From Methylobacterium oryzae (GTDB taxonomy: Bacteria > Pseudomonadota > Alphaproteobacteria > Rhizobiales > Beijerinckiaceae), in assembly GCF_021398735.1 (NCBI RefSeq), contig NZ_CP090349.1, forward strand, positions 1,122,501-1,186,500: 64,000 nucleotides of DNA. Direction: 5' to 3'. Positions 53,102 to 63,712 of this stretch are shown here, piece after piece. A program made the translations under genes and the position numbers. How positions within the stretch are numbered: position 1 is the stretch's first letter; every line of letters begins with the position of its first letter. The notes beneath the pieces were generated by a model. The model had not been told where the DNA came from. It worked only from the letters and a program-made list of their open reading frames with translations, and did not search any database.

Positions 53102-54643
53102 TCAGACGCGCGAGCTCGGGCGGTAGAACGGCTCGTGCCGCGACGGGTCGATGTAGTCGGCGTAGAAGCGCCGCGCGTGGGGGAGCAGCGCCTTCGACAG
53201 CTGGCGCCGCTCGACCTCGTCGTCCGAGAGCGCCCGCGACAGGTCGTCGTGGAGCGCCTTCAGGGCGGCGTCGCGGTCGACCCGGGTGAAGCGGCCGTCC
53301 GCGTAGAGCACCTCACCCTCGCACAGAACCGCAGTGACGCCGCCGGTCTTGGCCCGCTGGATCACCGCGTCGAGGAGCGGCGTCTCCGGGTCGAGATACG
53401 GGTAGGCGATCTGGTCCCAGTCGATCAGGACCATGTCGGCGCCCTTGCCGACCTCGATCGTGCCGAGGCTGTCGCCGTAGGGGGTGGTGCGGGCGCCTCC
53501 GACGGTCGCCATGCGCAGCACCTGCGCCATGCTCGGCACGTCGGCCTCGTCCATGCCGGGCACCCGGTGGGCGCGCAGCACGAGGCGCATCTCCTGCAGC
53601 ATGTCGCGGTCGTCGTTGATGCCCGCCTCGTCGAGGCCGATCGCCGTGTTGATCCCCTTCGCCTCGAAGCGGTTGAGCGCCGCCACGCCGGAGCGCAGCC
53701 GGAAGTTCGAGGAACAGTTGTGGCAGATGCAGGTGCCGGTCGCCGCCACCCGGTCGATGTCGGACTCGTTGAGCCAGACGCCGTGGCCGAGCGTCAGGAG
53801 GGGCCCCAGCATGCCGAACCGGTCGAGGTACTCGACCGCGGTCCCGCCGCCGCGCTTCTCCGCGTAGGCCTTCTGGTAGGCGGTCTCGACGAGGTGCATG
53901 TGCATCGGCACGTCGTAGGATTCGGACAGGCCGGCCAAGCCCTCGAGGGCCGCGTCCGAGCACCAGTGCAGGTTGGCGGGGGCGAGCTGGATCTTCGCCC
54001 GCGACGCGCCCTCCTGACCGGCATGCAGGCTGCGGAAGAGCGAGAAATTGTCCTCCAGGGACATCTGGAAGCGCTCGAACCAGCGCTTCATCGGGTCCTG
54101 CAGCGGCGCCGGCAGGCTCGCCACGAAGTCCCTATCGGCCTGGTAGACGAGGCGGTTCTGGTCGCGGACCGCGAAGCAGTACGAGACCCGCATGCCGATG
54201 TCGCGATAGGCGCGCAGCACCTCGTTGGAGCGCGCCTCGACCTCTTCCAGGCTGCCGGGCATCCAGCCGTGGATGTGCTGGACCGTGGTGATCCCGGAGC
54301 CGACCATCTCGAAGGCCGAGTACAGGGTGTCGAGGTAGAGGTTCAGGTTGCGTGCCACCATGCGGGTGACGAACCACAGCTCCAGGGGCATGTCGGGGGA
54401 GCCGAGCTGCACCGGCGTCAGGCCGACATGGTGGTGGCCGTTGACGAAGCCCGGCAGCAGGATCTCGCGGCCGGACCCGATCACGGGTGCGTCGGGATAG
54501 CGGGCGTGCAGGTCCGCGTAGGTGCCGACCGCGGCGATGACCCCGTCCTTCTGAAGAACCGCGCCGTCGGCGATCTCCTCCCAGCGATCGTGGTCGAGGG
54601 TGCGGGTGATCATCCGCCGGCTGCGGATCAGCGATGTGGCCAT
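53102..54643 (-). CDS. amidohydrolase / TRZ-ATZ-type deaminase
   Basis: Encodes 513 residues. Metal site: HxH in FVNGHHHVG (residue about 73), His in MHMHLVET, His in TLGHGVWL and Asp in IGLDEAGIND. These fit subtype III amidohydrolases of the ATZ/TRZ class (8-oxoguanine deaminase, hydroxyatrazine hydrolases), zinc or iron. It is the last gene of an ABC importer operon, so it probably deaminates or hydrolyses the imported compound. The substrate is not known. ATG 54643 is the family start. Confidence 0.85.
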   Translation of the reverse strand: MATSLIRSRRMITRTLDHDRWEEIADGAVLQKDGVIAAVGTYADLHARYPDAPVIGSGREILLPGFVNGHHHVGLTPVQLGSPDMPLELWFVTRMVARNLNLYLDTLYSAFEMVGSGITTVQHIHGWMPGSLEEVEARSNEVLRAYRDIGMRVSYCFAVRDQNRLVYQADRDFVASLPAPLQDPMKRWFERFQMSLEDNFSLFRSLHAGQEGASRAKIQLAPANLHWCSDAALEGLAGLSESYDVPMHMHLVETAYQKAYAEKRGGGTAVEYLDRFGMLGPLLTLGHGVWLNESDIDRVAATGTCICHNCSSNFRLRSGVAALNRFEAKGINTAIGLDEAGINDDRDMLQEMRLVLRAHRVPGMDEADVPSMAQVLRMATVGGARTTPYGDSLGTIEVGKGADMVLIDWDQIAYPYLDPETPLLDAVIQRAKTGGVTAVLCEGEVLYADGRFTRVDRDAALKALHDDLSRALSDDEVERRQLSKALLPHARRFYADYIDPSRHEPFYRPSSRV

Positions 54644-54669
54644 GGTCGTGTCCGTGTTGGGGGAGGGGG

Positions 54670-55476
54670 TCAGACGAGCGCTTCCTGCTCGGCGAAGGCC
54701 CGGTCGACCTCGTCGCGCAGGAGCTCGGTGAGGTGCCGCCGCAAGGCCTCCGCCTCGGGCGAGAACGGGTCGCGCGGGCGGGCGAGGTCGTTGCGGACGA
54801 TCGTCTTGATCCGCCCGGGGCGGGCGGTGAACACCACCACCCGGTCGGCGAGCGCCACCGCCTCGTCGATGTGGTGGGTCACGAACAGCACCGAGGCGCC
54901 GCTGTCGCGCCAGACGTCGAGCAGGAAGTCCTGCATCTTCTGGCGGGTCTGGACGTCGAGCGCCGCGAAGGGCTCGTCCATCAGCAGTACCTTCGGGCGC
55001 ATGGCCAGCGCCCGCGCCACCGCCACGCGCTGGCGCATGCCGCCGGACAGCTCGTCCGGCCGCTTGTCGAAGGCCTCGGCGAGGCCGACGCGCTGGAGCG
55101 CCGCCCGGGCGACGCTCCGGCGCTCGGCCTCCGGCACGCCCTTCAGCGACAGGCCGAAGCTGACGTTCTGCCAGACGCTGAGCCAGGGCAGCAGCGAGGT
55201 CTCCTGGAAGATCAGGCTGCGCTCCGGCGACGGACCGGTGACGGCCTCGCCGAAGGCCAGGAGTTCGCCCCCGGAGGTGGGTTCGAGCCCGGCGATCAGG
55301 TAGAGCAGCGTGCTCTTCCCGCAGCCCGAGGGGCCGAGGAACACCACGAACTCGCCGGGCCGCACGGTCAGGTCGATGTCGCGCAGGGCCTCGTGGGCGC
55401 GGGCGGTGCCGGCCGCCCAGACCTTGGCGACGCCGCGGCACGCGACGGCGTCCTCGGATGCGGGATCAGAGGCCAA
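54670..55476 (-). CDS. ABC transporter ATP-binding protein, SsuB/TauB class
   Basis: Encodes 268 residues: Walker A GPSGCGKST, signature LSGGMRQRV, Walker B VLLMDEPF, H-loop VTHHIDEA. Its start is TTG (revcomp of caa at 55474-55476), with only a weak ribosome binding site; it overlaps the permease gene by 11 nt. SsuB/TauB-like importers carry sulfonates, taurine, nitrate or pyrimidine-like compounds; the amidohydrolase partner favours a heterocyclic or amine substrate. Confidence 0.87.
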   Translation of the reverse strand: MASDPASEDAVACRGVAKVWAAGTARAHEALRDIDLTVRPGEFVVFLGPSGCGKSTLLYLIAGLEPTSGGELLAFGEAVTGPSPERSLIFQETSLLPWLSVWQNVSFGLSLKGVPEAERRSVARAALQRVGLAEAFDKRPDELSGGMRQRVAVARALAMRPKVLLMDEPFAALDVQTRQKMQDFLLDVWRDSGASVLFVTHHIDEAVALADRVVVFTARPGRIKTIVRNDLARPRDPFSPEAEALRRHLTELLRDEVDRAFAEQEALV

Positions 55477-56395
55477 GGGAGGACCCCGCGTCGCGCGGCA
55501 GCCAGTACAGCAGCCGCCGTTGGACCAGCCGGAACAGCAGGTCGAAGGCGAAGCCGAGCAGGCCGATCAGCGTGATGGTGAAGAACACGAGCGACGGGTT
55601 GAAGGTGTTGCGCGCCAGCATGATCACCTGGCCGAGCCCGTAGCCGACGCCGGTCGCCTCGGCGACGAGCACCACCATCCAGGCGCCGAACAGGTTGAGG
55701 CGCAGCACCGCGAGCAGTCCCGGCAGGATCGCCGGCACGATCACCCGGGCGTAGATCTGGCGCTTCGACGCCCCCATGGTCCGGGCGACGTTGATGAAGT
55801 TGCGGTTGACCCCGTCGATCTGCTGGATGGTCGAGAGCACCATCGTGAAGAACAGGGCGATGAACACCATGAAGATCGCCGGGGCGTTGCCGATCCCGAA
55901 CATGAAGATCGCCACCGGCAGCCACGCGATCGGCGAGACCGGCGCCAGGAGCGTGATGGTCGGCAGGGTCAGCCGCTCGAACAGCTTGAAGTAGCGGATC
56001 GCCACCCCGACCAGGATCGACAGGGAGGCCGCCAGGGCGAGGCCCGCCAGCACCCGGCCGGTCGAGGCGAGCACGGTGATCAGCACCGCCATGGCGGGGC
56101 TGGGGCCGGTATTCATCCCGGTGCCGATCTGCCAGCGCTGCGCGGTGTTGAAGAAGCGCGCCTGCTCGGCGAGGTTGCCGAGGAAGATGTGCGGCGGCGG
56201 CAGGAGCTTGGCGTCGGCGATGCCGAGCGCCCAGAGCAGCTCCCAGAGGCCGGCGAAGGAACCGACCGAGACCAGCATCCATCCGATCCGGCGGAGCAGG
56301 GGGACGAACCCTTCGGGCAGCGCGAGGCGTTGACCGAGCGGGAGGCGCGGCCGGTCCTGCGGGACGGCGGCGGCGCGGGCGAGGAAGGTGGCCAT
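55466..56395 (-). CDS. ABC transporter permease, SsuC/TauC class
   Basis: Encodes 309 residues with about six membrane helices. The EAA-type loop NVARTMGASKRQIYARVIVPAILPG is the coupling segment that contacts the ATPase. It starts 4 nt after the binding-protein stop and overlaps the ATPase start, so expression is tightly coupled. Inner membrane. Confidence 0.9.
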   Translation of the reverse strand: MATFLARAAAVPQDRPRLPLGQRLALPEGFVPLLRRIGWMLVSVGSFAGLWELLWALGIADAKLLPPPHIFLGNLAEQARFFNTAQRWQIGTGMNTGPSPAMAVLITVLASTGRVLAGLALAASLSILVGVAIRYFKLFERLTLPTITLLAPVSPIAWLPVAIFMFGIGNAPAIFMVFIALFFTMVLSTIQQIDGVNRNFINVARTMGASKRQIYARVIVPAILPGLLAVLRLNLFGAWMVVLVAEATGVGYGLGQVIMLARNTFNPSLVFFTITLIGLLGFAFDLLFRLVQRRLLYWLPRDAGSSLGL

Positions 56396-56399
56396 CCGC

Positions 56400-57452
56400 T
56401 CAGGCCGACTTCAGCTTGAGCTTGCCGTAGAGGTCCGGGTTCTCGGCGATGACCTGTTCCAGCAGGGTCCAGTCGATCGCGTCGCGGCCGGGCTTCTTCT
56501 TGATGTAGCCCATCTCGGCGACGGAATCGGTCCGGTCGAGGATGAACTGCGTCTGGTTGCGGGCGTCGACCACCGAGGGCTGCCGGCCCATGGCGAGCTG
56601 GGCGTTGCTCATCGAGGTCTTGTAGTAGGAGCCGACGAGCTTGTTTAGGGCGGCCTGGGGGTCGCCCTCCGCCAGCGCCTGGGCCTTCATCATGCCCTTG
56701 ATCAGGGCCTTCACGGCGGCCGGGTTCTTGGCGATCAGCTCGTTGCGGACCGCCAGCACGCAGTCGGTGTAGCCCTTGCCGTAGATGTCGGTCCCGTCGG
56801 AGAGCTTCACCGCGCCCTTCACGTCGGTGAGCAGCGCCGTGCCGTAGGGCTCGATGGTCGAGATGATGTCCAGCGCCCCGGCGCGGAACGCCTCCACGGC
56901 CTCCGGGGTCGAGCCCATGTAGCGGACGGTGATGTCCTTGAAGGCGACGCCGTTCTTCTTCAGCCAGTCGTAAGGCAGGACCTCGAGCGTATCGAGCTGG
57001 AAGGTCCCGAGCGTCTTGCCCTTGAGCTTCTCCGGGCTGTCGAGGCCGGGCTGGGCCACGAGCACGCAGCCCTCGATGCCGCCGCCGGCCACGATCTTCA
57101 CGGGAGCACCCGCGTCGTAGAGGGCCATGAAGCTCGTGTAGGGCATCACGCCGGCATCGACCTGGCCCATGCCGAGGAAGGTGACCTGATCCGAGAAGGT
57201 CGGCGTGTTGACGAAGTCGATGGTCAGCCCGTCATCCTTGGCGAGCTGCATCGCCTCGGCCAGGAAGAAGTTGAGGTTGCAGAACCCGGTGCCGTGGGTC
57301 GCGCGGATGCCGGTGGCCGCCGCGGCCGGGCCGGTCAGGCCCGGGCCCACCGCCAGGGTCAGCGCGGCGGCGGTCCCGCCGAGGAAGCGCCTGCGACTGG
57401 GCTTGAACCGCGTGAGATCCGGGACGCGATAATCGCCGTGACGGTCGCACAT
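56400..57452 (-). CDS. ABC transporter substrate-binding protein, NMT1/SsuA type
   Basis: Encodes 350 residues. The Tat-like leader SRRRFLGGTAAALTLAV (about 19-35) is followed by a periplasmic binding fold with NFFLAEAMQLAKDDG..., G-QVDAGVMPY and the DTLEVLPYDWLKKNG stretch common in NMT1/THI5-like or nitrate/sulfonate binding proteins. GAGGAG lies 8 nt before the start. It is the first gene of a four-gene operon (binding protein, permease, ATPase, amidohydrolase). Confidence 0.9.
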   Translation of the reverse strand: MCDRHGDYRVPDLTRFKPSRRRFLGGTAAALTLAVGPGLTGPAAAATGIRATHGTGFCNLNFFLAEAMQLAKDDGLTIDFVNTPTFSDQVTFLGMGQVDAGVMPYTSFMALYDAGAPVKIVAGGGIEGCVLVAQPGLDSPEKLKGKTLGTFQLDTLEVLPYDWLKKNGVAFKDITVRYMGSTPEAVEAFRAGALDIISTIEPYGTALLTDVKGAVKLSDGTDIYGKGYTDCVLAVRNELIAKNPAAVKALIKGMMKAQALAEGDPQAALNKLVGSYYKTSMSNAQLAMGRQPSVVDARNQTQFILDRTDSVAEMGYIKKKPGRDAIDWTLLEQVIAENPDLYGKLKLKSA

Positions 57453-57988: not shown

Positions 57989-58882
57989 TTACGCGGCCAC
58001 GAGGTTGAAGGTGCGGTCGGCCGGCGCGAGGCTCACCCGCCGCCCCCAGTCGAAGGCGACGAAATCCTGCTCGATCCCGTCCGAGAACACCACGCCGCCC
58101 TCGTTCATCCGCGACACCACCGTGAGGGGCGAGCCGGCGAACTTGCCGCCGCGGAGTTCGGTGCCGGTGGCGACGCTCGGGAACGGCTCGCGCACCCAGT
58201 AGCCGAAGGCCGCCTCCTCGATGCCCACCTCCACGGTGAGGTGCGTCGCCTCGCTGATCGAGCGCGCCCAGCCGGTCAGGCCGGTGCCCGAGGCCACGAT
58301 CAGACCGCTCGACGAGTGGTCCTCCGCCCGCGCCCCGTCGTCGATGCGGTAGCGCGCCGATTGGTGGCTGCGGTGGCCGACGAAGATCTCGTTCAGGGCG
58401 AGCAGCCGCTCGCCGCCGTCGAAGGTCGCCTGCACCATGGTGCGCCGCTGGAGGGGCGCGGCGCCGGCCGCGCTGGCGGGCAGGAGCGCGCGCAGGGCCT
58501 CGACCCGCGCCCGGGCCAGCACGCCGTCGTAGAGGTCGGGCGCCGGGTTGACGCCGACCACCGGCTGCCCGTCGAGGTACTTGGCGACGTTGGCCACGAG
58601 CCCGTCCTGCCCCACCGCCACGACCACGTCCTCGGGGGCGAAGAGGAAGCGGTCGAGGTCGGGGCGCCGCACCAGGGCTTGCCGCCAGTCCAGCGGCACG
58701 GCGGACCGGGCCTCGGCGAGCACGGCCTGGAACTGCGCGTGGCGCGCCTCGACCTCGGCGAGCGTCTGGCCCCGGCTCTCCAGGAAGAACCGGACCTGGC
58801 CGCGGGTCGCGTGCCGGGCGATGAGCAGCTCGTAATCCGTGTCGCGGATCACGAAGACCACGCGGGGTGTGACGGCCGGCAT
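57989..58882 (-). CDS. NAD-kinase-fold protein
   Basis: Encodes 297 residues resembling NAD kinase: VVAVGQDGLVANVAKYL (residues 87-103) replaces the usual GGDGT motif but keeps the Asp-Gly (93-94), VVGVNPAPDLYDG (108-120) resembles the GIN-x-G loop, and ALNEIFVG plus SSGLIVASGTGLTGWARS match the conserved NNE and DG-x-ATPTGSTA stretches. Its N-terminal 80 residues are not NAD-kinase-like. It lies 11 nt after an SPFH gene and in the same operon as nrtR, so an NAD-linked role is likely, but the kinase motif is altered. Start has GAGGAGG. Confidence 0.72.
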   Translation of the reverse strand: MPAVTPRVVFVIRDTDYELLIARHATRGQVRFFLESRGQTLAEVEARHAQFQAVLAEARSAVPLDWRQALVRRPDLDRFLFAPEDVVVAVGQDGLVANVAKYLDGQPVVGVNPAPDLYDGVLARARVEALRALLPASAAGAAPLQRRTMVQATFDGGERLLALNEIFVGHRSHQSARYRIDDGARAEDHSSSGLIVASGTGLTGWARSISEATHLTVEVGIEEAAFGYWVREPFPSVATGTELRGGKFAGSPLTVVSRMNEGGVVFSDGIEQDFVAFDWGRRVSLAPADRTFNLVAA

Positions 58883-58893
58883 GGCGGGCCTCC

Positions 58894-59880
58894 TCAGCGC
58901 GGCGCGAGCCGCGGGGACAGCGCGCCCCGGAACTCGCCGAGGACGGCCGCCAGCAGGTCCGGCGTGACGTTGACGTGCTCGATCGTCTCCAGCTTGCCGG
59001 CGAGTTCCCGGGCCGCCAGCCCGAGCAGGACGGCGGGCGGCATGTCCCGGTAGACGGCGGCGCGGCGCTGCTCCGCGTCGGCCCGGGCTCCCTCGACGAG
59101 GCGGATCCGCTCGGCCTCCGCGGCCGCCTCCAGGCCCCGCGCCTCCGCGACGCCGGCGGCGCGGTCGCGGGCGTTCTCGGCCTCCTGCGCGATCAGCACG
59201 GTCTCGCGCCGGGCCAGCTCGGTCTTCGTGGCGAGCTCGTTCTCCGCGATGGCGCGCTCCTTCTCGACCGCCAGGGCGCGCCGCGCGAAGGTCGCCTCGT
59301 CGGCCTTCTGCTGCAGGGCCTCGAAGGTCGGGGTCTGCAGGGCGCGCTCCAGCTCGCTCGTCGGCGCGAGGTTGGTGAGCCGCACCGACACCGCCGCCAC
59401 GCCGATCTCGGCCAGCGCCGGGGCGTCGGACAGCACCCGTTCCAGCACGGCGCGCAGCGGCTCCGGACCCGCGTCGAGGAGGGCGCCGATCGGGCTCGCC
59501 CCGAGATACTGGAGCGCCGCCTGGCTGGCGATGCCGCCGAGGCGCGCCTCGATCCGCTCGATCGGCTCGCCCTGCAGGCGCCCGGTTCGGAGGTCGATCG
59601 AGAAGTCGACGCGGCTCGCCAGCAGCTCCGGATCGACGACGTGCCAGCCGATCGTCCCCTGGACCACGACGGTCTGGAAGTCCCGGCTGCGGCCGCGGAC
59701 GAAGAGCGTCATCTCGCGGTCGTCCACCGGCACCTCGCTGATGCTGGCGGTCTCGGGCCGGAACCAGAAGACCAGACCCCGCCCGCTCTGCCGGACACGA
59801 CCGTTGCGGAAGCGGATGATGTGGCTGCTCGCCTCGCTCCGAAGCTGGGCGATGACACCGATGTTGCGGACCGTGGCCAT
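58894..59880 (-). CDS. SPFH/band-7 domain protein without membrane helix
   Basis: Encodes 328 residues from ATG 59880 (GAGGAG 7 nt upstream). A band-7 domain (about 10-180; LVFWFRPETASISEVPVDDRE, VVQGTIGWHVVDPE) is followed by a coiled coil (residues about 185-290, ERAIAENELATKTELARRETVL). Unlike the SPFH protein at 3969 it has no obvious N-terminal helix, so it may be peripheral. Operon: nrtR upstream (73 nt), NAD-kinase-like gene downstream (11 nt). Confidence 0.82.
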   Translation of the reverse strand: MATVRNIGVIAQLRSEASSHIIRFRNGRVRQSGRGLVFWFRPETASISEVPVDDREMTLFVRGRSRDFQTVVVQGTIGWHVVDPELLASRVDFSIDLRTGRLQGEPIERIEARLGGIASQAALQYLGASPIGALLDAGPEPLRAVLERVLSDAPALAEIGVAAVSVRLTNLAPTSELERALQTPTFEALQQKADEATFARRALAVEKERAIAENELATKTELARRETVLIAQEAENARDRAAGVAEARGLEAAAEAERIRLVEGARADAEQRRAAVYRDMPPAVLLGLAARELAGKLETIEHVNVTPDLLAAVLGEFRGALSPRLAPR

Positions 59881-59953
59881 GATGGGCTCCTCGAAGCGCT
59901 CTCCGCCGAAGTGGATACCGGTTCGGCTCAAGAGAGCGCGTTGAAACAAAGGC

Positions 59954-60685
59954 TTAGAACTGGCCTGACCTGTCGAAGCGGAAGAGTTCGGCGGGGCGGA
60001 ACGCCGTCCCGGCCTCGCGGGCGCCTGTCGGCGCGATCCAGCCCCGGTCGCGCATGCGGCGCCGGAAGGCGGATTTGTTGAGGGGCACGCCGCGGATCGC
60101 CGCGTGCACGTCCTGAAGCTGCCGGAGGGTGAAGTGCTCCGGGAGCAGCGCGAAGCCGACATCCGTGTAGTCGAGCTTGCCGCGCAGCCGCTTCACGGCG
60201 AGCGCGAGGATGTCGGCGTGGTCGAAGGCGAGGGCGAGGGGCGCGCCGTCCTCCGCCTCGGCCGAGACCGGGCCGCCGGACTCGCCCGCCCAGGGCACGA
60301 CCAGCACCGCCGCCGCGAGCCCGGCACCGCCCGCCAGGGCCTCGACGAAGGCCGCCTCCGGCAGCAGCGCGAGGTAGGCCACCGAGACGATCCGCATCCG
60401 CGGATCCCGATCAACGGCGCCGAAGGTGTAGAGCTGCTCGAGCCGCGCCCGCCCGATGCCGGCCTTGTCGCGCAGGACGCGCTCCGCGGCGGCGTCGAGG
60501 GTCTCGGCGATGCCCACGAACCCGCCCGGCAGGGCCCAGAGGCCCGCCTGCGGCTGCTGGCTCCGCCGCAGCAGGAGGGCGGCGAGCCGGCCCGCCCGGA
60601 TCCCCAGCAGGACGAGATCGACCGCCAGGGCGGGCCGCTCGTAGGCCGCAGGATCGTAGCCTGCCAGGAACTCGGACTCGGTCAT
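59954..60685 (-). CDS. nrtR: NrtR-type Nudix transcriptional regulator
   Basis: Encodes 243 residues: a Nudix-fold domain (about 20-150) with GLWALPGGFV and a Nudix box that is degenerate (AERVLRDKAGI in place of RE-x2-EE), as in NrtR, and a C-terminal winged-helix segment (LLPEHFTLRQLQDVHAAI...NKSAFRRRM). NrtR senses ADP-ribose or related metabolites and represses NAD genes. ATG 60685 is preferred over 60733 because the longer form would contain the operator palindrome in the coding region. It heads the operon with the SPFH and NAD-kinase-like genes. Confidence 0.8.
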   Translation of the reverse strand: MTESEFLAGYDPAAYERPALAVDLVLLGIRAGRLAALLLRRSQQPQAGLWALPGGFVGIAETLDAAAERVLRDKAGIGRARLEQLYTFGAVDRDPRMRIVSVAYLALLPEAAFVEALAGGAGLAAAVLVVPWAGESGGPVSAEAEDGAPLALAFDHADILALAVKRLRGKLDYTDVGFALLPEHFTLRQLQDVHAAIRGVPLNKSAFRRRMRDRGWIAPTGAREAGTAFRPAELFRFDRSGQF

Positions 60686-60692
60686 CGGTCTT

Positions 60693-60713
60693 TTCTGCTC
60701 AAGTTGAGCATAA
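60693..60713 (-). promoter_or_regulatory. 21-bp palindrome, candidate NrtR operator
   Basis: TGCTCAA, one base, TTGAGCA is a perfect 15-nt palindrome, and extends to 21 nt with a single mismatch. It begins 8 nt before the nrtR start codon, in the place of an autoregulatory operator. NrtR boxes in other bacteria are also 21-nt palindromes; the sequence itself I cannot verify against a known motif. Confidence 0.6.
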
Positions 60714-60935
60714 CTAAGACGCAGATTGCGCATATGTCAAGCCGAGAGCGGATTCGCCGGGAAGCGCCGCGGAACGCACAGCTCCGCACCGGCTCCGCAC
60801 AGATCCGCCCGGGCACGGCCGGCCGGTGCGGTCTGAGCCTGGAAAAGGGCGAAGCTTCTCGTGGCGACCGAGGGGCTGGCGCGGGAGCTTCAGCGGCGAG
60901 CCGGCATCGATCCGCCGGTGCAGGAGGTTTCCCCG

Positions 60936-63125
60936 ATGCCGTTCTTCGCTCCACGATCCGCGGTCGAGCCCCCCCGCAACGCCGCGCTGTCACCGCTCTT
61001 CCTCGCGCTGCTGGCGCTGCTCATCATGCTCGCCTCGGCCCACGCGGCGCCGGGCCGAGACCGGGGTGGCCTCACCCTGCGCGGGCCGGCCGGCACCGCG
61101 CCGGTCGAGGCCGTCCAACTGGCGACCGACATCAGCGTCGACGTCAGCGGCCCGACCGCCCGGGCCACCGTCACCCAGGCCTTCCGCAACGTCACGGCGG
61201 ACTGGGTCGAGGGCACCTACCTGTACCCCCTGCCGGAGGACGCGGCCGTCGACGGGATGAAGCTCGTCGTCGGCTCCCGCGTGATCATCGCCGACATCCG
61301 CGAGCGGGCGGCGGCCAAGCGCGCCTACGAGGCCGCGAAGGCGGCCGGGCAGTCGGCGGCGCTGACCGCGCAGGAGCGGCCCAACGTCTTCACCAACGCG
61401 GTCGCCAATATCGGCCCCGGCGAGACGGTGGTGGTCCAGATCACCTATCAGCAGACGATCCCCGTCTCGGGCGAGACGCGGACGCTGCGCCTGCCCCTGG
61501 TGGTCGCGCCCCGCTACAATCCCGCCCCCGCCCCGGTGGACGCGGTCTCCCTCGACGGCGTGGCCGGAGCGGCCCGCGACCCGGTTCCGGATCGCGCCCG
61601 GATCAGCCCGCCGGTGCTCGACCCGGCCCTGTCGTCGCCGACCAACCCGGTCGCCGTCACCGTGCGGCTGAAGGCGGGCTTCCCCGTCGGTGACGTCCGC
61701 AGCGCGACCCACGCGATCCGCGTGACCGAGACCGGCCCGGAGGCGCGGACCGTCACGCTCGCCGACGGCGTCGTCCCGGCCGACCGCGACCTCGAGCTGA
61801 CCTGGGCGCCGGTCCCGAGCCGGGTGCCCGGCCTCGGCCTGTTCCGCGAGACCGTGGCGGGCCGGACCTACCTGCTGGCCGCCGTGAGCCCGCCGGCGAT
61901 CGAGACCGACACGGCCGCCCGGCCGGCGCGCGACGTCACCTTCGTCATCGACAATTCCGGCTCGATGTCGGGCGCCTCGATGCGGCAGGCCAAGGCCGGG
62001 CTGCTCGCCGGTCTCGCCCGCCTGACCCCGTCGGACCGCTTCAACGTCATCCGCTTCGACGACACCTGGGACGCGCTTCATCCCGCGCCCGTCCCGGCGA
62101 CGCCGGAGGCCCTGGCGCAGGCCCAGGCCTTCGTCGCCGCTCTGGAAGCCCGCGGCGGCACCGAGATGCTGGCGCCGCTCAAGGCGGCCCTCGCCGACCC
62201 GCACCCCGAGGACGGGCGCGTCCGGCAGGTCGTGTTCCTCACCGACGGCGCCGTCGGCGACGAGGAGCGGATCTTCGCGGCGATCCACGCCAATCTCGGG
62301 CGCACGCGCCTGTTCATGGTCGGCATCGGCTCGGCGCCCAACGGCCACCTGATGCGCCACGCCGCCGAGATCGGACGCGGCAGCTTCACCGAGATCCGCG
62401 ACCTCGCGCAGGTCGGCGAGCGGACCCGCGCGCTCTACGAGAAGCTGGAATCCCCCGCCGTCACCGACCTGACCGCGACCTTCTCGGTCTCGGGCGTCGA
62501 GGTCACGCCGGGCGCGCTGCCCGACCTGTATCGCGGCGAGCCGCTGGTCTTCGCCGCGCTTCTGCCGGGAGCGGCCGAGGAAACGGCCCGCGGGACCGTG
62601 ACCGTCACGGGCCGGGTGGGCGGCCGGACATGGACCCGGACGCTCCCCCTCGCCGAGGCGGGTGCGGGCGCCGGCATCTCCAAGGTCTGGGCGCGCTCCC
62701 GGATCGGCGAGACCGAGACGGCGCGCATCACGGGGCGCCTCGGCGCGGACGCGGCCGACGCCGCGATCCTGGCGCTGGCCCTGGAGCACGGCCTGACGAC
62801 GCGGCTGACCAGCCTCGTGGCCGTCGACGCCACGCCGCGCCGCGCGCCCGGCACGCCCCTCGTCGCCGCCGACCTGCCGCTGAACCTGCCGGCGGGCTGG
62901 GACTTCGCCAAGGTGTTCGGCACGGACCGGCCGGGCGCCACGCCCGCCGACGACGGGGCAGCGCGGATCGTGCCGATCCGGGCCGAGGGCGCGGCGGTCG
63001 ACCTGCCGCGGACCGGGGCCGGCATCGTGGCGCAGCTCGGCCTGGGCCTGCTCCTCGCCCTGCTGGGTCTCCTGCTCGGCACCGGCCTGACGATCGGCGG
63101 CCGGCGGACCGGGGACGCGCGATGA
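60936..63125 (+). CDS. sortase substrate with VIT and von Willebrand A domains
   Basis: Encodes 729 residues. Signal peptide (LFLALLALLIMLASAHA, about 20-36), a VIT domain (about 45-160), then vWA with MIDAS DNSGSMSG near residue 338. The C-terminus carries the cell-wall sorting layout LPRTG (690-694), a hydrophobic stretch (GLGLLLALLGLLLGTGL) and RRTGDAR. This matches the marine proteobacterial sortase target family (from memory). Its stop overlaps the sortase start (ATGA). AGGAGG precedes the ATG at 60936. Exposed, anchored in or on the envelope. Confidence 0.9.
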   Translation: MPFFAPRSAVEPPRNAALSPLFLALLALLIMLASAHAAPGRDRGGLTLRGPAGTAPVEAVQLATDISVDVSGPTARATVTQAFRNVTADWVEGTYLYPLPEDAAVDGMKLVVGSRVIIADIRERAAAKRAYEAAKAAGQSAALTAQERPNVFTNAVANIGPGETVVVQITYQQTIPVSGETRTLRLPLVVAPRYNPAPAPVDAVSLDGVAGAARDPVPDRARISPPVLDPALSSPTNPVAVTVRLKAGFPVGDVRSATHAIRVTETGPEARTVTLADGVVPADRDLELTWAPVPSRVPGLGLFRETVAGRTYLLAAVSPPAIETDTAARPARDVTFVIDNSGSMSGASMRQAKAGLLAGLARLTPSDRFNVIRFDDTWDALHPAPVPATPEALAQAQAFVAALEARGGTEMLAPLKAALADPHPEDGRVRQVVFLTDGAVGDEERIFAAIHANLGRTRLFMVGIGSAPNGHLMRHAAEIGRGSFTEIRDLAQVGERTRALYEKLESPAVTDLTATFSVSGVEVTPGALPDLYRGEPLVFAALLPGAAEETARGTVTVTGRVGGRTWTRTLPLAEAGAGAGISKVWARSRIGETETARITGRLGADAADAAILALALEHGLTTRLTSLVAVDATPRRAPGTPLVAADLPLNLPAGWDFAKVFGTDRPGATPADDGAARIVPIRAEGAAVDLPRTGAGIVAQLGLGLLLALLGLLLGTGLTIGGRRTGDAR

Positions 63126-63712
63126 GCCGGCGCACGGTGACCGGACTGGGGAGGGCCCTCGCGGCCCTCCTCACCCTCGCGGGGCTCGGGCTCGCGGCGC
63201 AGGCCGCCTGGATCCCCGCCAAGGCCGTCCTGGCCCAGCTGCTGCTGGAGCGCGCCTTCGCCCGCACCCTGGCCGAGGGTCGGCCCGCCCGGCCCTGGCC
63301 CTGGGCCGACACCGAGCCGGTCGCCCGGCTCACCGTCGCGGGCCGCAGCTTCGTGGTGCTGCGGGGCGGGAGCGGCCAGGCCCTGGCCTTCGGCCCCGGC
63401 CACCTGGACGGCACCCCGGAGGCCGGCGCGCCCGGCACCGCGGTCATCGCCGCCCACCGCGACACGCAGTTCGCGGTGCTGGGACAGCTCGGGCCCGGCG
63501 ATCCCGTCACGGTGACCGGCCGCGACGGCCGGATTCTGCGCTTCCGCGTCACCGGCACGCGGGTGGCCCGCTGGGACGCCTCGGGCATCGACCCGGAGGC
63601 CCCGGGGCGGCATCTCGACCTCGTCACCTGCTGGCCCCTGGAGGCGCTGCAGGCCGGTCCGCTCAGGCTTATCGTCGAGACCGAGCTGGCCCCGGAGCCG
63701 GAGCGTTCCTGA
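63122..63712 (+). CDS. class GN sortase
   Basis: Encodes 196 residues: an N-terminal membrane/signal helix (about 10-30) and a sortase domain with catalytic His112 (AAHRDTQF), Cys170 (LVTCWPLEA) and Arg182 (GPLRLIVE). This is the Gram-negative sortase class found beside one dedicated substrate. It recognises LPxTG-like tails; the LPRTG of the preceding gene is the obvious substrate. Periplasmic side of the inner membrane. Translationally coupled by a 4-nt overlap. Confidence 0.92.
   Translation: MSRRTVTGLGRALAALLTLAGLGLAAQAAWIPAKAVLAQLLLERAFARTLAEGRPARPWPWADTEPVARLTVAGRSFVVLRGGSGQALAFGPGHLDGTPEAGAPGTAVIAAHRDTQFAVLGQLGPGDPVTVTGRDGRILRFRVTGTRVARWDASGIDPEAPGRHLDLVTCWPLEALQAGPLRLIVETELAPEPERS

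Follow-up and report, generated by a model that had tools for sequence, protein, structure and literature searches.

We have analysed a 64,000-nucleotide (nt) stretch of the Methylobacterium oryzae genome (NCBI RefSeq assembly GCF_021398735.1, contig NZ_CP090349.1, positions 1,122,501 to 1,186,500; the whole stretch is called the window below, and coordinates refer to it). It holds an operon of three genes that encode a regulator of the NrtR family, an SPFH (Band 7) protein and a protein with the nicotinamide adenine dinucleotide (NAD) kinase fold, for which we use the name OrfY. The genes lie head to tail on the minus strand in the order nrtR, SPFH, OrfY, separated by 73 and 11 nt, just as the original prediction made from this DNA had described. 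We have found that this order is conserved, that the promoter holds two dyads, one of which has the sequence of the NadQ operator in the nadA leader, and that OrfY combines the kinase fold with invariant catalytic positions. As a working explanation, which in our judgement has an even chance of being right, the operon would provide an auxiliary, inducible NAD kinase, with an SPFH assembly to organise it and two NAD-dependent controls over it.

The features of the operon and its promoter are given below. The start of nrtR was set to match the starts of its homologues.

57989..58882, minus strand: OrfY, NAD-kinase-fold protein of putative NADK2 type, 297 amino acids
58894..59880, minus strand: SPFH / Band 7 gene, 328 amino acids, no clear N-terminal membrane anchor, long helix 175-278
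59954..60685, minus strand: nrtR, Nudix-type sensor domain plus NrtR winged-helix domain, degenerate Nudix box; Pfam NUDIX and NrtR_WHD
60693..60713, minus strand: site B, 21-bp palindrome TTATGCTCA-ACT-TGAGCAGAA, putative NadQ-type operator, 9/10 arm pairs match
60712..60717, minus strand: predicted -10 element TTAGTT, read directly; 17-nt spacer, two-base overlap with site B
60715..60735, minus strand: site A, second dyad ATATGCGCA-ATC-TGCGTCTTA, 5/9 pairs in the window, covers the -35/-10 spacer
60735..60740, minus strand: -35 element TTGACA, read directly; TTGAC lies at most 75 nt upstream of nrtR in 42/43 alphaproteobacterial loci

The near-perfect palindrome that had been seen before nrtR is real: 9 of its 10 arm pairs match, 7 nt separate it from the nrtR ATG, and a pattern of its shape, written after the site was known, matched the window at site B only, against a mean of 0.00 matches over 100 shuffled versions. 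Its assignment to NrtR, on the other hand, is now the less likely reading, in view of the fit to the NadQ consensus, the copy at nadA and the persistence of the site in three nrtR-deficient genomes. The 21-bp consensus for NadQ (COG4111), the regulator of nadABC, is given as ttATRCTCannntGAGYATaa in section 16 of PMC5343134, and site B, TTATGCTCAACTTGAGCAGAA, fits it except for one position. At the upper-case core, the window has 11/12 positions and several relatives have 12/12, while among 5000 shuffles a score of 11 comes up twice and 12 never. When the core was scored over 100 rows of nrtR promoters, some of them repeated, values of 11 or 12 were found only in L001-L007, L027, L028, L034-L036, L038-L040, L045 and L081, and the rest had 10 or less.

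Within the own genome (G000, 6.65 Mb), exact copies of TGCTCANNNTGAGCA are confined to two places, the operon promoter and the nadA leader. The latter copy is intact in 50/50 leaders, which come from 50 of the 59 genus genomes (one was without match and eight were outside the sample); 31 are from genomes with the operon and 19 from genomes free of it. Since the site is present in 19/19 leaders of operon-free genomes, it is independent of the operon's NrtR, and nadA was rejected as a target of this NrtR via the palindrome copy. The originally suspected link to NAD metabolism has been strengthened. In 18 of the 19 operon-free genomes there is a single winged-helix gene of the NrtR_WHD family; G033 has a second. 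In the latter, a Methylobacterium genome, an NrtR-type winged-helix gene lies at G033:C1:695117-695449.

The second NrtR_WHD protein of the window genome (L026) is NadQ itself, matching 7q91 at 6.8e-92 over residues 23-329, and a nadQ homologue is present in 59/59 genus genomes. Nature has also provided losses of nrtR. In L035, L037 and L049 (Methylobacterium sp. J-088, J-030 and J-070), nrtR is gone or reduced to a 25-codon remnant, the SPFH-OrfY pair is kept, and a 12/12 NadQ core remains upstream. Each of these genomes has one NrtR_WHD gene, against two each in five comparison genomes, and this sole gene is nadQ, 94% identical to that of the window genome. The distances from site to SPFH are 128, 163 and 68 nt, respectively, and being so unequal they suggest separate losses. 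When the close relatives of the window are grouped by SPFH identity, in place of a tree, all 10 kept loci with an SPFH protein at least 88% identical to the window's show 11 or 12/12 core positions, 7 with nrtR and 3 without. Overall, we hold it to be quite probable on this evidence that site B is a NadQ operator in the Methylobacterium group nearest the window. NadQ has reportedly been called ATP-responsive in the title of a 2022 paper.

Site A, a second dyad at 60715-60735 that is absent from the original prediction, has its centre 22 bp, or two helical turns, upstream of the centre of site B. Among the 42 alphaproteobacterial promoters with TTGAC, partly closely related (42 out of 43, which are 46 candidates less L035, L063 and L077), mean dyad symmetry is 5.14/9 pairs at site A, compared with 1.48-3.38 at 12 shifted centres, and 5.36/9 at site B, compared with 1.83-3.19, both centres having been picked after inspection of the sequences. 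That is, the two-site layout is a conserved feature of the family, with arm sequences that differ by group. Of the two sites, A would be the likelier operator of NrtR, judging from the sequences.

The synteny of the three families, which had been proposed as a check and whose absence would have spoken against the original prediction, holds well beyond the window. We have found 285 OrfY relatives in a genomic contig collection and analysed the best 80 as loci. Among all loci considered, including those from a second genome search, L027 and L028 repeat L001, and some from that search duplicate loci of the contig collection, e.g., L004 and L038. SPFH lies directly upstream of OrfY on the same strand in 79/80 loci, the exception, L090, lying at a contig end; the gap is at most 30 nt in 72/79, and the two genes overlap in 24. 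A nrtR-type match is near OrfY in 72/80 loci (58 co-directional, 14 divergent), a count that includes the 25-codon remnant of L035 and a partial frame of 130 residues in L063. As for the eight loci without it, L080 and L090 are at contig ends, and L088, L103, L105 and L110 may hide a diverged regulator. The titles of module-bearing records include Methylobacterium, Methylorubrum, Mesorhizobium, Sphingomonas, Labrys and Roseomonas, and also Nocardioides, Mycolicibacterium, Dactylosporangium, Minicystis and planctomycete metagenome-assembled genomes. Within the genus, OrfY is present in 33/59 genomes (G006 being counted on a partial match), and among the 37 genomes G000-G036, SPFH and OrfY co-occur in an identical 24. 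We are highly confident of the synteny and the fold of the module as described here.

We have also clustered the open reading frames (ORFs) around the 80 loci. Clusters 0-2 are, by length, OrfY, SPFH and nrtR; beyond the module, no cluster occurs in more than 8 loci except cluster 3, found in 21 loci, whose example ORF is antisense to the module. GC-rich DNA makes this clustering crude: even the genes of the module were picked up in no more than 36 to 58 of the loci. Conserved partners outside the three genes were rejected, as no such cluster was found around the 80 loci with this crude ORF picking.

For OrfY, the structure model shows the NAD-kinase fold over the whole chain, and both sequence and model are nearest to human mitochondrial NADK2. 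The NAD-kinase matches in NCBIfam are weak (best 7.8e-6). Two alignments, A1 and A2, cover 55 and 52 of the 80 loci plus the window, with near-duplicates and broken frames left out. All 56 of the 56 aligned sequences share the catalytic positions D93 (the Asp of GGDG), N164 and E165 (the NE motif). The GGDG motif as written is replaced by GQDG, with Q in 53/56 and D in 56/56. The original prediction had read this motif correctly, while a reading of it as the mark of a dead or odd kinase was not supported, considering that the Asp and NE are invariant; judging from the alignment, GQDG is a signature of the family and not decay. The other departures of OrfY from bacterial NAD kinases are common to mitochondrial NADK2. 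In a profile test on two stretches of human NADK2, OrfY comes closer to NADK2 than other NAD kinases do, with one stretch nearly tied; the ordinary NAD-kinase set consisted of 19 sequences from 25 loci, a few of which may have wrong starts. From sequence and model, OrfY would be a NAD kinase by fold and not a decayed bacterial one, a membership that we claim for the fold, not for the activity. That it has NAD kinase activity seems to us slightly the better bet. An ordinary NAD kinase is also present in 24/27 OrfY genomes. The genomes of L091, L096 and L100 gave no PF20143 match despite having OrfY, which may be the sole NAD kinase there, unless a match was missed.

The SPFH protein matches Pfam Band_7 at 1.7e-8 (35.2 bits, cut-off 23.6), and its monomer model has a mean predicted local distance difference test (pLDDT) score of 83.8. 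A single-sequence search of it against solved structures gave no match; in the lists of structure matches, families outside the listed matches stay possible. The original prediction of an envelope scaffold was not confirmed. A Kyte-Doolittle mean of 1.6 within the first 78 residues, as expected of an N-terminal anchor, is reached by 1/79 SPFH proteins, though 25/79 reach it somewhere in the chain. Actually, 24 of these 25 hydrophobic stretches are near residues 144-155, within the SPFH domain. The protein may hold a hydrophobic hairpin. A physical assembly of SPFH and OrfY might or might not exist, with the balance about level.

By its domains, the nrtR product belongs to the NrtR family, with Pfam NUDIX at 1.6e-10 (41.6 bits, above the cut-off) and NrtR_WHD at 1e-19 (70.9 bits, cut-off 27). 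It scores 157.7 bits with the NCBIfam equivalog for the ADP-ribose-responsive repressor, whose cut-off is 400, and hence we claim membership of the family and not of the exact equivalog. The degenerate Nudix box noticed originally is confirmed: it reads GGFVGIAETLDAAAERVLRDKAG against the expected REUxEExG, with RVLRDK where REUxEE stands. The actinobacterial nrtR-type neighbours in L097, L101, L104, L108 and L111-L113 have an intact RELxEETG, so the regulator there may double as an enzyme. ADP-ribose releases NrtR-type regulators from DNA. As sensors of ADP-ribose they are treated in PMC9503650.

Based on the above analyses, we propose that the operon would act as an inducible auxiliary NAD(P) module. 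OrfY would be a second, NADK2-type NAD(H) kinase, apart from the housekeeping NAD kinase, and the SPFH protein would hold or organise it by assembling into a ring or cage. Two NAD-state repressors would control transcription. One would be NrtR, encoded in the operon itself, with site A in the promoter spacer as its main target; the other, in the Methylobacterium species closest to the window, would be its paralogue NadQ, bound to site B, the operator also found in the nadA leader. A shortage or breakdown of NAD would switch on NAD synthesis together with the module, and the kinase would keep NADP(H) supplied.

Several observations weigh against this explanation. OrfY has no Pfam match, and proven NAD kinases carry GGDG, from which its GQDG deviates. 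The affinity to the NADK2 type was judged from a single NADK2, the human one, and the first stretch of it scores 35.1 bits with the OrfY profile vs 32.8 with the ordinary NAD-kinase profile. The SPFH model has a predicted template modelling (pTM) score of only 0.51, its long-helix structure matches are partly generic, and 25/79 of the proteins carry the hydrophobic stretch described above. As regards the promoter, site A was assigned to NrtR by inference, and if one mismatch is allowed, the site B pattern has 21 places in the genome vs 6 for a reversed control, the contexts examined being the two exact ones. Besides, the module is missing from 26/59 genus genomes, which means that it is dispensable.

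Other explanations share part of this evidence. Site B might be an operator of NrtR whose specificity has shifted to a NadQ-like sequence, with NadQ uninvolved at the operon. The winged-helix domains of NrtR and NadQ in the window genome are indeed homologous, with 43% identity over 109 residues, and this may allow NrtR to bind site B as well, which also counts against our assignment. Moreover, site B differs between groups (TTATTCGCACGATGCGAATAA in L043), as would be expected if an operator evolves along with the regulator encoded next to it, and taxon-specific changes of NrtR motifs are reported in the survey of PMC5343134. We nevertheless regard this as unlikely, because the three loci without intact nrtR keep the full core with nadQ as the only family member, the nadA site is there in every operon-free leader, and site A holds another arm sequence next to site B. 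A more serious alternative, possible though still the less probable one, concerns the kinase: with its fold, OrfY may act on another acceptor (nicotinamide mononucleotide, ADP-ribose, a lipid or a nucleoside), or it may sense nucleotides and report to the SPFH assembly. This would suit the replacement of GGDG in 53/56, the ordinary NAD kinase already present in most OrfY genomes, the lacking Pfam NAD-kinase match and the ADP-ribose-type regulator within the operon, while the invariance of the catalytic Asp and NE positions is what a kinase would show.

It is also conceivable that the module is an anti-phage or stress device, in which a defence enzyme degrades NAD and the ADP-ribose set free switches on the SPFH-kinase pair. 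The regulator family senses ADP-ribose according to PMC9503650, the occurrence is patchy (33/59 genus genomes), and there are copies on plasmids and on one viral contig, described below. Against this, PADLOC models matched 0/7 proteins at E 0.01, the crude clustering gave no conserved neighbours, none of the 50,697 phage records of INPHARED matched at E 1e-5, and the links we have found point to NAD synthesis. We consider the defence role improbable, and keep the auxiliary NAD kinase as the working explanation.

Among 72,556 plasmid records, 68 carry an OrfY relative, all with less than 60% identity. A divergent NUDIX gene followed by SPFH and the kinase-like gene is found on Rhizobium etli p42f, Methylomonas pUP202, Moraxella pNP7-1 and a Providencia plasmid, and on a Treponema plasmid the SPFH and kinase-like genes adjoin with the NUDIX gene ~4 kb off. 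On Moraxella osloensis pNP7-1 (L207:4094-8841) the NUDIX/SPFH/OrfY-like module adjoins annotated tetR(H)-tet(H). On a Streptomyces yangpuensis plasmid (L212:2174-3832), a von Willebrand A-domain gene lies upstream of SPFH-OrfY, in the expected place of nrtR.

The viral copy lies on a 257-kb IMG/VR contig, the only one with an OrfY relative among the 132 pattern matches of the IMG/VR scan. Judging from the sequences, it sets the module among genes of nicotinamide-salvage type.

L204:673-9192, L210:1414-2082 and L211:12988-13974: three-gene module, salvage-like genes, phosphoribosyl pyrophosphate (PRPP) synthetase and nadD-like gene of the viral contig

On one strand there are nrtR-like, nicotinamidase-like, clpP, DUF3228, SPFH, OrfY (44% identity), nicotinate phosphoribosyltransferase (NAPRTase)-like and lysyl-tRNA synthetase genes. 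The PRPP synthetase lies within the 19 kb analysed beside the module, and the nadD-like gene is elsewhere on the contig. NUDIX, isochorismatase, CLP_protease, DUF3228, Band_7, tRNA synthetase, CTP_transf_like and Pribosyltran_N are above the cut-off. Below it, which again counts against our explanation, are NrtR_WHD (19.8 against 27) and NAPRTase (20.3 against 20.8), as well as three NCBIfam names, nicotinamidase, nicotinate phosphoribosyltransferase and nicotinate-nucleotide adenylyltransferase. The 10 of 21 L211 ORFs that were searched with PHROGs and Pfam included no structural phage gene, unless one counts a weak portal-family match on a Nudix protein, so the viral nature of the contig is taken from IMG/VR.

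Compared with known systems, the operon resembles NrtR regulons in its two-domain regulator, in the regulator's own gene behind a dyad promoter and in its NAD-related setting, but here SPFH and NADK2-type genes follow instead of NAD-synthesis genes, and there are two dyads, one of them NadQ-type. With the NadQ regulon it shares the operator, its core being equal to the nadA-leader site, whereas the targets in section 16 of PMC5343134 are NAD synthesis genes and no nrtR-SPFH-kinase operon is mentioned in that section. With NADK2, OrfY shares the fold, the SSGL and GTGxxxW stretches, GVNxxP and the N-terminal region; it differs in length (297 residues vs 391 in 7r4j), in GQDG and in its operon with SPFH. 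The SPFH protein has the domain followed by a long helix, as in the ring or cage proteins HflK/C, prohibitin, erlin, flotillin and major vault protein, yet it lacks a clear N-terminal transmembrane segment, its operon has no protease, NfeD or vault partner, and it is known here from a monomer model. Annotators have already noticed the bare association: one UniRef cluster of the module family has a name beginning with "NrtR-regulated protei", and the SEED names for the pair are NrtR-regulated OrfX (Band 7) and OrfY (PpnK-type). These are names only, without a function. Our literature search gave no paper that joins SPFH with NAD kinase or NrtR and Nudix with SPFH, or that uses "NrtR-regulated"; neither SPFH nor NAD kinase is mentioned in PMC9503650 or PMC7824862, and SPFH appears in PMC7159879 in the reference list only. 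Apparently new are the operator of NadQ type together with the natural losses of nrtR, the assignment of OrfY to the NADK2 type and the salvage-type surroundings of the viral copy. A widespread, unnamed gene pair is given a candidate job in NAD(P) balance, and the case shows that a palindrome may belong not to the regulator encoded beside it but to a paralogue encoded elsewhere in the genome.

OrfY also offers a bacterial relative of human NADK2, an enzyme kind for which the 2019 study PMC6675116 presents no consistent prokaryotic sister clade, as for eukaryotic NAD kinases in general. One may go further and imagine that OrfY is the bacterial stock of mitochondrial NADK2 and works in a soluble SPFH ring, as a NADP-forming machine that is echoed in mitochondria by NADK2 and prohibitin rings, that NrtR and NadQ switch it on with NAD synthesis, and that some large phages carry it with nicotinamide salvage. 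This is a long shot. According to PMC6675116, the mitochondrial clade of eukaryotes is sister to the cytosolic one, an arrangement that argues against NADK2 having a bacterial root of its own, and OrfY as its origin is a lead only.

As for the surroundings, the best sequence matches of the operon are in M. radiotolerans and M. fujisawaense. A VIT-VWA protein gene (60957-63125) and a sortase gene (63116-63712) are divergent from the operon; a VIT-VWA gene is near the module in 9/80 loci, every one titled Methylobacterium. On the operon's strand, an amidohydrolase-like frame and an NMT1-type ABC uptake system occupy 53102-57452, apparently unrelated to the operon.

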